This document shows positions 10,509 to 40,183 of a DNA stretch of 40,183 nucleotides, piece by piece. The stretch spans positions 1 to 40,183 of the forward strand of contig JAGAVG010000067.1 in assembly GCA_017942035.1 (NCBI GenBank). The letters run 5' to 3'. The first letter of the stretch is position 1. Every line of letters begins with the position of its first letter. Below the pieces are notes generated by a model. It was not told the origin of the DNA. It ran no database searches and saw only the letters and a list, made by a program, of their open reading frames with translations. The position numbers and the translations under genes are program-made. Origin of the DNA: a bacterium. GTDB taxonomy: Bacteria; Cyanobacteriota; Vampirovibrionia; Gastranaerophilales; Gastranaerophilaceae.

Positions 10509-11315
10509 TTACCAAGGATAATCATCTTTGATTTCCCAGCCGTCCATCATTAAAAGCAAGGTGCATCCATGTCTGTATAACTCATTTTCATTTTCTTCAT
10601 TCTTTGATTTTTTACAAGAAATTAATTCTGGTCTACCTGGATTTACTGTAAAATTTATACCATCCAAAACTTGTTCTCTTGTAGGTTGAGTCCAAGCTCC
10701 ATACGGAACAAGACCATTTTCGGTTGTCAAAACAAAATAAAATGCATCTTTACCTTGAATATTAGGCCCCGCTTTACCATTAACGTCAACAATCATAAAC
10801 GAAATTGCACCTATAGTAGTACTTATTTGATGCACAACAATTGAAACGGTTGAACCATTAGTGAGAAAGTATGAGATACCATTAGCACTAACGGGCATAC
10901 CGCACTTTTTAAGAACAGCTTCTCCACCGCCAATACCGCAAAGCTTCGGACTGTTCAAATATGGTAAGATGTATTGATTAAGAAACCGTTCAGTATTTTC
11001 AAGTGCAGTGTTATTCCCTAAAACCCAATCTTTAGCTTCGCCATTTTGAACCTCAGAAAGTTTTATAGCCTGAGCAAGTATTGAATATGCCTGCTTAGCA
11101 CGATTTGCAAAAACTTTTTTCTGGTATTTAGCAATCAATGCCGGCATGGTTATCGCCGCAACAACCCCGATTATTCCGAGGGTGATTAGAACCTCAGCCA
11201 AAGTAAAGGCAACTTTCGTCATTGCGAACGGAACAGAGTGAGTGCGGCAATCCGGTTTTTCCGGTAGACTAAAGTCTACCCTACTACTTACCCTCTGTTC
11301 TTCTAATATATTCAT
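10509..11315 (-). CDS. Type IV pilin / pseudopilin-like protein with repeat-derived leader
   Basis: It has a prepilin-type N-terminal helix AFTLAEVLITLGIIGVVAAI preceded by MTKV. The mature part is a predicted extracytoplasmic domain with cysteines (SPKLCGIGG, LKKCGMP, ISCKKSKNE, YRHGC). It ends in the tail MDGWEIKDDYPW, shared with the pilin at 18352. The frame begins 36 residues before the FTLAEV phenylalanine. That leader (SSRVDFSLPEKP, then AMTKV) is encoded by palindromic repeats at 11217-11280. The residue before the cleavage site is Ala, not the usual Gly. AAAGGAGG lies before the first ATG. The alternative is a short leader starting at MTKVAFTL. Element copy A lies 45 bp upstream. Confidence 0.85.
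   Translation of the reverse strand: MNILEEQRVSSRVDFSLPEKPDCRTHSVPFAMTKVAFTLAEVLITLGIIGVVAAITMPALIAKYQKKVFANRAKQAYSILAQAIKLSEVQNGEAKDWVLGNNTALENTERFLNQYILPYLNSPKLCGIGGGEAVLKKCGMPVSANGISYFLTNGSTVSIVVHQISTTIGAISFMIVDVNGKAGPNIQGKDAFYFVLTTENGLVPYGAWTQPTREQVLDGINFTVNPGRPELISCKKSKNEENENELYRHGCTLLLMMDGWEIKDDYPW
11217..11280. repeat. Palindromic repeats translated into the pilin leader (copy 1)
   Basis: CGTCATTGCGAACGG to GCGGCAATCC (11217-11253) is a 'GTCATTGCGAG...GCAATCC' type repeat. It is followed by the palindrome GGTAGACTAAAGTCTACC (11263-11280) and CTACTAC. The same pair in the same order recurs at 19003-19066 inside another pilin gene. Both lie inside the reading frame, just before the AFTLAEV codons. 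Confidence 0.75.
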
Positions 11316-11359: not shown

Positions 11360-11534
11360 GCACCATAATTTATATTTTGGTGCGAGTCGACCTGAAACTC
11401 ACTAAAACATACCTTTTCAAAATTCAAAAATTTCACCAAAAACGACAATAGACCACTTGAAATGTGGCGGAAAATATTGTATAATAAGGCTATAAAAAAC
11501 TCGCACCAAAATATAAAATTTGGTGCGTGTTTTT
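11360..11534. repeat. 168-bp repeated element, copy A (promoter plus double palindrome)
   Basis: The left palindrome runs 11360-11383 (GCACCATAATT...TTTTGGTGC) and the right palindrome 11504-11525 (GCACCAAAATAT...TTTGGTGC). Each is nearly the inverse copy of the other. The interior matches copy B (19175-19348), of identical 168-bp palindrome-to-palindrome length, and copy C (40031-40183). It includes ACTAAAACATACCTT, AACGACAA and the conserved promoter at 11457. On the minus strand TTTCAG, 17 nt and TATAAA could form a second promoter facing the pilin gene. Confidence 0.8.
11457..11485 (+). promoter_or_regulatory. Conserved promoter inside element copy A
   Basis: TTGAAA (11457-11462), a 17-nt spacer and TATAAT (11480-11485) form a near-consensus sigma70 promoter on the plus strand. 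It points at the right palindrome and its T-tract (11502-11534), predicting a transcript of only about 40-45 nt. Confidence 0.6.
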
Positions 11535-11567
11535 ATCTAATTTTATTAAATATTGTATCAGGTTAGA

Positions 11568-18259: not shown

Positions 18260-18387
18260 CCGGACACAGTCCGGCCTTACGTGTTACCGATTTTCGTTTA
18301 ATCTTATCAACTTTCGTTTAATGAGACAACTGGGAAATTGTCATTAAATTTTTACCAAGGATAATCATCTTTGATTTCCCAGTTGTC
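18260..18387. repeat. Repeats around the pilin 3' end (palindrome, 20-bp direct repeat, inverted tail copy)
   Basis: A palindrome CCGGACACAGTCCGG lies at 18260-18274. TTTCGTTTAAT is repeated at 18292-18302 and 18312-18322 (20-bp period). GACAACTGGGAAAT (18325-18338) is the exact inverse of the tail codons of the adjacent pilin (18374-18387). This 14-bp inverted repeat could fold as a hairpin at the mRNA end, or be an inverted tail remnant. Confidence 0.6.
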
Positions 18388-19134
18388 CATCAAAAGTAAT
18401 CTCGTACAGTTGCGGGAAATAATTTTGCATGCCTTTAGCGCATCCTCTCTGGAATATTGAGAAGCACTTGTATATTTTCCAGTATCAGGGTCAATCTTAT
18501 AAATCTCAGACGGAACAGAAGCTGTGTAAAAAAGGAAAGCGTGTTTCCTATCACCCAAATCATACAAATCTAACCGATTTTGATAATTTTTCTTTTTGCA
18601 CCAGCCGATATTTACACAAAACAAAACATGAGTATTTACAGTACCGGTAGGAGTACCCGATTTTGAAATCAACATTCCGCTGCCATCAGCAAATTCAGCA
18701 TCAATACCAACCTGAGTTTTTTCAACCTTAATCGTTTTAAAATAAGGCGCATAATATTTTTCATACCATTCTAACATTTGGTCAGGATCTTTTGCATTAG
18801 TAAGAATTGAAGTATCATCAAGAGTTGAATATTCATTTTTGGATTGCATTACCGCTTGAGAAAATGATGAATAAAACTTCTTGAGCCGTACGGTTGCAAC
18901 TTTTTTCTCATACTTAGTAATCAACGCCGGCAGTGTCATCGCCGCAACAATACCGATTATCCCGAGAGTGATTAAAACCTCCGCCAAAGTAAACGCGGGT
19001 TTCGTCATTGCGAGCGAACGTAGTGAGCGCGACAATCCATTTGTTTCCGGTAGACTAAAGTCTACCCTACTACTATTTTTTATCATATTATCCTCTTTCA
19101 AATTTCTTCCTTTCATAATTCTATATTTTAGCAT
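18352..19134 (-). CDS. Type IV pilin / pseudopilin-like protein with repeat-derived leader
   Basis: The prepilin helix is AFTLAEVLITLGIIGIVAAM, followed by TLPALITKYEKKVATVRLKK. The soluble domain carries a few cysteines (LFCVNIGWCKKK, KACKIISRNC). The tail MDNWEIKDDYPW matches the 10509 pilin. Phe after the predicted cleavage site is residue 48, because repeats at 19003-19066 are translated into the leader (SSRVDFSLPETNG, SRSLRSLAMTKP). The first ATG has AAAGGAGG 6 nt upstream; a second ATG (MIKNSSRVD) also has GAGGA. Position -1 is Ala. Element copy B lies about 40 bp upstream. It was probably derived from the same ancestor as the 10509 gene. Confidence 0.85.
   Translation of the reverse strand: MLKYRIMKGRNLKEDNMIKNSSRVDFSLPETNGLSRSLRSLAMTKPAFTLAEVLITLGIIGIVAAMTLPALITKYEKKVATVRLKKFYSSFSQAVMQSKNEYSTLDDTSILTNAKDPDQMLEWYEKYYAPYFKTIKVEKTQVGIDAEFADGSGMLISKSGTPTGTVNTHVLFCVNIGWCKKKNYQNRLDLYDLGDRKHAFLFYTASVPSEIYKIDPDTGKYTSASQYSREDALKACKIISRNCTRLLLMDNWEIKDDYPW
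19003..19066. repeat. Palindromic repeats translated into the pilin leader (copy 2)
   Basis: CGTCATTGCGAGCGAACG to GACAATCC (19003-19038) and the palindrome GGTAGACTAAAGTCTACC (19049-19066) followed by CTACTAC. This is the same pair and order as at 11217-11280. It encodes SSRVDFSLPE...RSLRSLAMTK of the pilin at 18352. Confidence 0.8.
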
Positions 19135-19174: not shown

Positions 19175-19348
19175 GCACCATAATTTATATTTTGGTGCAT
19201 GTAGGCCTGAAATCCACTAAAACATACCTTCTTAAAATTCGAAAAATCATCAAAAAACGACAAAAGACCACTTGAAAAGTAGTGGAAAATATTGTATAAT
19301 AAGGCTATAAAAAACTCGCACCAAAATATAAAATTTGGTGCGTGTTTT
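19175..19348. repeat. 168-bp repeated element, copy B (promoter plus double palindrome)
   Basis: The left palindrome is 19175-19198, the right palindrome is 19319-19340, and a T-run follows. Palindrome-to-palindrome length is identical to copy A. The interior is nearly identical to copy C for over 100 bp (GGCCTGAAATCCACTAAAAC, ACATACCTTCTTAAAATTCG, GACCACTTGAAAAGT). It sits directly upstream of the 18352 pilin gene. Confidence 0.8.
19272..19300 (+). promoter_or_regulatory. Conserved promoter inside element copy B
   Basis: TTGAAA (19272-19277), 17 nt and TATAAT (19295-19300) are followed by AAGGCTATAAAAAACTCGC and the right palindrome with its T-run. Confidence 0.6.
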
Positions 19349-34298: not shown

Positions 34299-34340
34299 AC
34301 ACGCACCAAAATATAAAATTTGGTGCGTGTTTTTCTTATT
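34299..34340. terminator. Solo copy of the element's right palindrome acting as a terminator
   Basis: ACACGCACCAAA (34299-34310) pairs with TTTGGTGCGTGT (34319-34330), followed by TTTTCTTATTTTTTTT. The 24-bp core is identical to the right palindrome of element copies A and B, without the rest of the element. It lies between the 6S-like RNA and the convergent nuclease-family gene. Confidence 0.75.
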
Positions 34341-40030: not shown

Positions 40031-40066
40031 CTCGCACCAAATTTTATATTTTGATGCGAGTTTTTT
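40031..40066 (+). terminator. Terminator of the marR-emrAB transcript (palindrome of element copy C)
   Basis: CTCGCACCAAA pairs with TTTGATGCGAG (one G-T/mismatch position), followed by TTTTTT. It lies 29 nt after the emrB stop. Confidence 0.8.
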
Positions 40067-40183
40067 ATAGCCTTATTATATAATATTTTCGAACACTTTT
40101 CAAGTGGTCTTTTGTCGTTTTTTGATGATTTTTCGAATTTTAAGAAGGTATGTTTTAGTGGATTTCAGGCCTACATGCACCAA
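40031..40183. repeat. Repeated element, copy C (truncated by the window edge)
   Basis: Read on the minus strand it matches copy B over the whole visible length, including GGCCTGAAATCCACTAAAAC, the promoter TTGAAA (40098-40103)-17 nt-TATAAT (40075-40080), AAGGCTATAAAAAACTCGC and the right palindrome. The second palindrome begins at the window edge. By analogy with copies A and B, the side facing a pilin gene points off the right end. Confidence 0.8.

Follow-up and report, generated by a model that had tools for sequence, protein, structure and literature searches.

The analysed window, a stretch of 40,183 nucleotides, represents one whole contig (C17) of a draft assembly from the order Gastranaerophilales, which comprises 1,994,118 bp (2.0 Mb) on 84 contigs. 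It carries three copies (A, B and C) of a repeated element, which share the same promoter TTGAAA-17-TATAAT, the sequence AAGGCTATAAAAAACTCGC, a palindrome and a T-run, as an earlier note on this DNA had described. In copy A, a gene-side recombination site (11360-11383, minus strand) is followed by the promoter (11457-11485, plus strand; TTGAAA at 11457-11462, TATAAT at 11480-11485), a terminator-side recombination site (11503-11526, plus strand) and the T-run behind the hairpin (11527-11536, plus strand). The promoter is directed away from a gene for a pilin-like protein of 268 aa (10509-11315, minus strand), which is putatively controlled by this copy. Copy B is built in the same way, with the gene-side site at 19175-19198 (minus strand), the promoter at 19272-19300 (plus strand; TTGAAA at 19272-19277, TATAAT at 19295-19300), the terminator-side site at 19318-19341 (plus strand) and a pilin-like gene of 260 aa under its likely control at 18352-19134 (minus strand), from which the promoter is again directed away. 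Copy C is inverted and incomplete, as noted earlier; however, it is not cut by an arbitrary edge but truncated by the contig end, because the window is an entire contig. Its terminator-side site (40034-40057), its promoter (40075-40103; TATAAT at 40080-40075, TTGAAA at 40103-40098) and the insert, which runs from 40058 up to the contig end at 40183 inside the far site, are all found on the minus strand. The Rfam search of the window returned tRNA only, with no match at the element. Apart from the three copies, the window contains a solo recombination-site palindrome lacking a promoter between convergent genes (34302-34325), one of about eight solo sites genome-wide, and a single open reading frame on the minus strand (253-1911) that by eye resembles a Mu-type transposase fused to a MuB-like ATPase tail.

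The element consists of a segment enclosed by two inverted palindromic sites (GCAYCAAAATATAAA plus an outer half) that are about 143 bp apart and surround a strong promoter of the sigma70 type. In the following, the inner half-sites are named P (promoter side) and Q, and the outer half-sites G (gene side) and T (terminator side). Two states can be read from this anatomy, OFF with the junctions P-T and Q-G, and ON with the junctions P-G and Q-T; the complete copy A displays the OFF order at both of its sites (Q-G and P-T), and the remaining terminator side of copy C does so as well (P-T). The equal length of copies A and B was borne out, although the span from palindrome to palindrome measured 167 bp and not 168 bp. 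The end palindromes had been regarded as near-identical, which applies to their inner halves, whereas the outer halves differ and read WWATGGTGC at the gene side and RTTTGGTGC at the terminator side. It is this difference between the outer halves that carries the function. The hairpin is followed by a run of at least four T in 96% of the T flanks and in 0% of the G flanks, on which the assignment of an intrinsic terminator is based. The string TTTCAG-17-TATAAA, proposed as a second promoter, is indeed present; its -10 hexamer, however, belongs to the recombination-site core, and nothing was found to suggest promoter function. The main promoter is strongly conserved (TATAAT in 112/112 copies, TTGAAA in 111/112), whereas many columns of the insert vary.

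The repetition of this element in its own genome is far beyond chance, since a 28-bp piece of it gave 110 matches with at most three mismatches and the reversed control gave 0. The whole genome was read stretch by stretch and holds about 110 copies. Most of them are distinct, with a median pairwise difference of 16 of 149 positions, and a few pairs are only 1-4 positions apart. The element pattern was confined to its own genome among 383 genomes of the order, being absent from the other 382, and a DNA search in 58 relatives returned chance-level fragments only. Hence, the further copies in relatives that the earlier note had asked for were not found for this sequence, which is private to one genome among the 383 searched. 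A like architecture with diverged sequence is nevertheless present in the isolate RGIG9312, a relative within the Gastranaerophilales, and the absence of further copies does not decide the matter.

All evaluable gene-side junctions (92/92, from a total of 107) lead to an open reading frame with the type IV prepilin-like segment FTLAEVLITLGIIG. When the copies were aligned, the flank past the left palindrome was recognised on the opposite strand as a 5' UTR that includes a GGAG/AGGA motif and leads to an ATG. The pilin-like frames at the junctions have a median length of 268 aa and share a median identity of 47% with their nearest paralog, none exceeding 90%, and a permissive count, with a few false matches among its hits, gives 134 loci with the pilin motif in this genome. 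Past T, the copies lose all similarity above background within about 30 nt, whereas past G they remain similar throughout the 5' UTR. Because of this asymmetry, the unit that was multiplied is most likely the switch plus the start of the pilin gene rather than a free element. Many pilin-like frames throughout the genome have leaders in front of FTLAEVLITLG (median 48 aa, range 9-149). Such leaders, for example those at 11200-11290 and 19000-19075 of the window, hold shuffled in-frame peptides encoded by repeats, namely SRVDFSLPEKLDC, NPSPQPSPTRGEGV, TCHAELVSASHDTEIPKQVRND and TLSQRERV, and dispersed repeats seem to have been inserted within the coding leaders of pilin-like genes. Very large pilin-like families extend beyond the species of the window, as seen for the genome G009 with 116 pilin-like matches in 1.9 Mb; the switch sequence does not.

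Nearly all copies were assembled in the OFF state, with the promoter directed away from the gene. A first-pass census of junctions counted 106 P-T, 103 Q-G, 4 Q-T and 1 P-G, and the refined census 111 P-T, 93 Q-G, 4 Q-T and 3 P-G, plus a few that are cut at contig ends. A complete copy deep inside contig C77 (56,950-57,104) has both reciprocal ON junctions, and further junctions of the ON type are located at the ends of contigs C1, C82, C29, C47 and C27. The 141-bp insert of window copy C (P-T) is found unchanged at the end of contig C1, but there in the opposite order (P-G). As most copies differ from each other, C1 and C17 are most simply understood as the two sides of one locus that was caught in both orientations, which would place the pilin-like gene of copy C on contig C1. 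At the ends of C82 and C29, one unique flank is found on both sides of the insert, an artefact that is expected from mixed orientations. Contig C27 may represent the gene side of C82 or C29, hence, at least five loci have ON-type junctions. About five of about 107 loci, as counted in a consensus assembly, is only a rough lower bound for the ON state. Most of the ON junctions lie at contig ends. Since such an assembly displays the majority orientation only, the transcription of the pilin-like genes cannot be judged from it. Collectively, the element has the features of an inverton, i.e. inverted repeats, an internal promoter able to face a gene and, in the assembly, both orientations.

We consider it highly probable that the element serves as an invertible promoter and that more than 100 loci possess such a switch based on site-specific DNA inversion; the small tyrosine recombinase encoded on contig C69 is the most likely enzyme and would act in trans. 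In the OFF state, the promoter would point away from the pilin-like gene and fire into the hairpin and T-run, yielding a dead-end transcript about 40 nt long. If the two inverted sites recombine, the segment would be turned, and in the ON state the promoter would face the G flank, which has no T-run, and read through to the ribosome-binding site and ATG of the pilin-like gene. Expression would thereby follow orientation, and the cell would probably change its surface fibres by flipping small DNA segments.

Other explanations have to be weighed against this promoter inversion. The ON junctions could have arisen when repeats were wrongly joined during assembly, and the element would then be a divergent promoter/terminator spacer that is fixed, a view that gains from the location of most ON junctions at contig ends and from the resemblance among copies. 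However, the copy on C77 lies intact in the middle of a contig and has both of its junctions in the ON order, the insert at C1 is identical to that at C17, and both orientations are independently displayed in RGIG9312. Moreover, the P-T and Q-G contexts of the OFF state have at most 20 bp in common in register, which is below the usual smallest assembler word and would make a false join between them unlikely. The artefact explanation is therefore very improbable. Even less credit can be given to a non-autonomous mobile element, MITE-like or otherwise, that has dispersed within the genome and bears the promoter only incidentally, which was the first idea on seeing about 110 copies, had also been offered in the earlier note and was dropped once the flanks proved to be the starts of pilin-like genes. 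The many copies in one species, the palindromic ends and the absence from 382 other genomes of the order would agree with it. Nevertheless, insertion independent of the neighbouring gene and with two sharp ends was not what we observed: one side always enters a pilin-like gene, the ends are unlike those of a freely inserting unit, given that similarity ends soon after T and extends along the 5' UTR on the G side, and the reciprocal ON junctions would be left without explanation. The same note had suggested a family of tiny RNA genes, which as genes for regulatory RNAs of about 40 nt with a fixed orientation are the most doubtful of the alternatives. Promoter and terminator are indeed conserved in nearly all copies and the RNA would hold the same hairpin as the pilin leader; but Rfam gave no match, the supposed RNA consists mostly of the recombination site, and the junctions at C77, C1/C17, C82, C29 and C47 contradict a fixed orientation. 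Such a short RNA is best understood as arising incidentally in the OFF orientation, where transcription from the promoter runs into the terminator. A portable pilin promoter/insulator came closest among the three earlier proposals, because all copies are linked with pilin-like genes and have a terminator at one end, whereas the invertibility had been missed.

The candidate enzyme is a 181-aa tyrosine recombinase (C69:88163-88708 in the genome of the window, G000) of the size of FimB and FimE. It matches PF00589 with an E value of 1.7e-27, and its catalytic residues R41, K68, H129, R132, H155 and Y164 are each present in at least 70 of 75 alignment rows. Most of the length of the FimB and FimE models could be aligned, but the scores of 48 and 31 bits are far below the cut-offs of 222 and 221, hence, the protein should be called FimB-like in size and fold and not a member of FimB/FimE. 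When the surroundings of 74 homologous loci were scanned within 700 bp for inverted repeats with a score of at least 15, a pair was found beside 38 of them compared with 0.4 expected in shuffled sequence, and most pairs enclose 130-220 bp. The loci that were inspected adjoin genes of the surface-polysaccharide type and others, as annotated by eye. For example, the small recombinase and inverted-repeat segment of relatives lie next to a DNA-methyltransferase-like gene at locus L240, a UDP-galactopyranose-mutase-like gene at L242 and a sialic-acid-synthase-like gene at L244 (all by eye); these and other loci are probably linked phase-variation switches. Further homologs with 46-50% identity (L314-L317 and L319) exist in Halanaerobium and Peptostreptococcus.

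The closest parallel was found in RGIG9312, in which at two loci (L276 and L318) a segment flanked by CATCAAAATAAATATTATGATG-type sites comes after the recombinase gene and precedes a pilin-like gene. This genome has 44 site matches per strand, paired 145 bp apart, and the inserts at the two loci face opposite ways (a reverse score of 36 compared with 14 forward and a shuffled maximum of 22). The recombinases of the own genome, G009 and RGIG9312 form one group with a support of 93/82, and among the sites adjacent to homologs only those of RGIG9312 resemble the sites of the window beyond background (19/24, background maximum 17). Across all 38 pairs, the similarity of sites and recombinases was not significantly correlated (rho 0.25, p 0.13), sites like those of the window were sought and not found in G009, which has the most similar recombinase (67%), and a switch beside the C69 recombinase was likewise sought and not found. 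Because of these three results, the link between the C69 enzyme and the sites is good but circumstantial. The same invertible promoters might be turned by a different enzyme encoded in this genome, such as one of the large serine recombinases, since several further recombinases are encoded (five large serine, two XerC/D-like and two other tyrosine recombinases) and no site is adjacent to the C69 gene. We regard this as unlikely, because the family of the small tyrosine recombinase is the only one found by inverted-repeat segments (38/74), and its clade-mates in RGIG9312 adjoin similar sites before pilin-like genes. With respect to a small serine recombinase of the Mpi type, the genome yielded only larger ones of 450-610 aa and one serine-like fragment in a mixed open reading frame, and none is tied to the sites.

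The sequence evidence is best explained by a repertoire of over 100 pilins subject to phase variation, in which one recombinase probably serves all switches in trans, and the purpose of this repertoire would be the variation of surface pili. With only slightly better than even confidence, we propose the more specific scheme in which over 100 near-identical switches are all served by one unlinked tyrosine recombinase, every switch drives a pilin-like paralog of its own, and only a few are ON per cell. If this is true, a non-photosynthetic relative of cyanobacteria would possess a combinatorial repertoire of surface fibres in which the number of ON genes is possibly itself controlled. One switch family attached to over 100 fibre-gene paralogs within a gut genome of 2 Mb would explain, in a way that can be tested, why the pilin-like families of Gastranaerophilales are so large. 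Furthermore, its many naturally occurring recombination sites could be used to study how sites are chosen and how orientation is biased.

Inversion of promoters has long been known as a mechanism, and in phase variation of this kind a genome commonly has between one and a few dozen switches. Invertible promoters are known from Bacteroides, and the Mpi of Bacteroides fragilis is a serine recombinase that acts in trans on many dispersed capsule promoters. This system and the invertons of gut bacteria resemble the present one in having many dispersed promoter segments between inverted repeats and surface structures as targets. The candidate enzyme here is a tyrosine and not a serine recombinase, and in place of capsule operons the switches precede single pilin-like genes and form about 110 members of one sequence family. 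Up to 181 invertons have been reported in one genome, that of Mitsuokella multacida, for which a single family was not stated (PMC11892184). The switch fimS of the type 1 fimbriae of Escherichia coli is inverted by FimB/FimE (PMC11868660) and shares with our element a small tyrosine recombinase lacking an N-terminal domain, inverted repeats around a promoter and a fibre gene as target. However, E. coli has one switch beside the recombinase genes and chaperone-usher fimbriae, whereas here more than 100 unlinked switches are associated with type IV pilin-like genes. The loci of RGIG9312 are alike in the homologous recombinase, a site core matching at 19/24, a spacing of 143-145 bp, pilin-like targets and both orientations, but in that isolate the recombinase genes lie directly by a switch, the sites are fewer and the insert is not recognisably similar to that of the window. 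REP/BIME palindromes and MITEs are also dispersed, palindromic and intergenic; in contrast to them, our element has a fixed position relative to one gene family, a constrained promoter and inversion junctions. Literature searches on invertible promoters, phase variation and pili in Gastranaerophilales/Melainabacteria, and on pilin paralogs under invertible promoters, did not turn up any such system. Hence, the kind of mechanism is known, while its scale, layout and lineage look new, with a very large set of switches from a single family, one switch per pilin-like paralog and a probable unlinked master recombinase.
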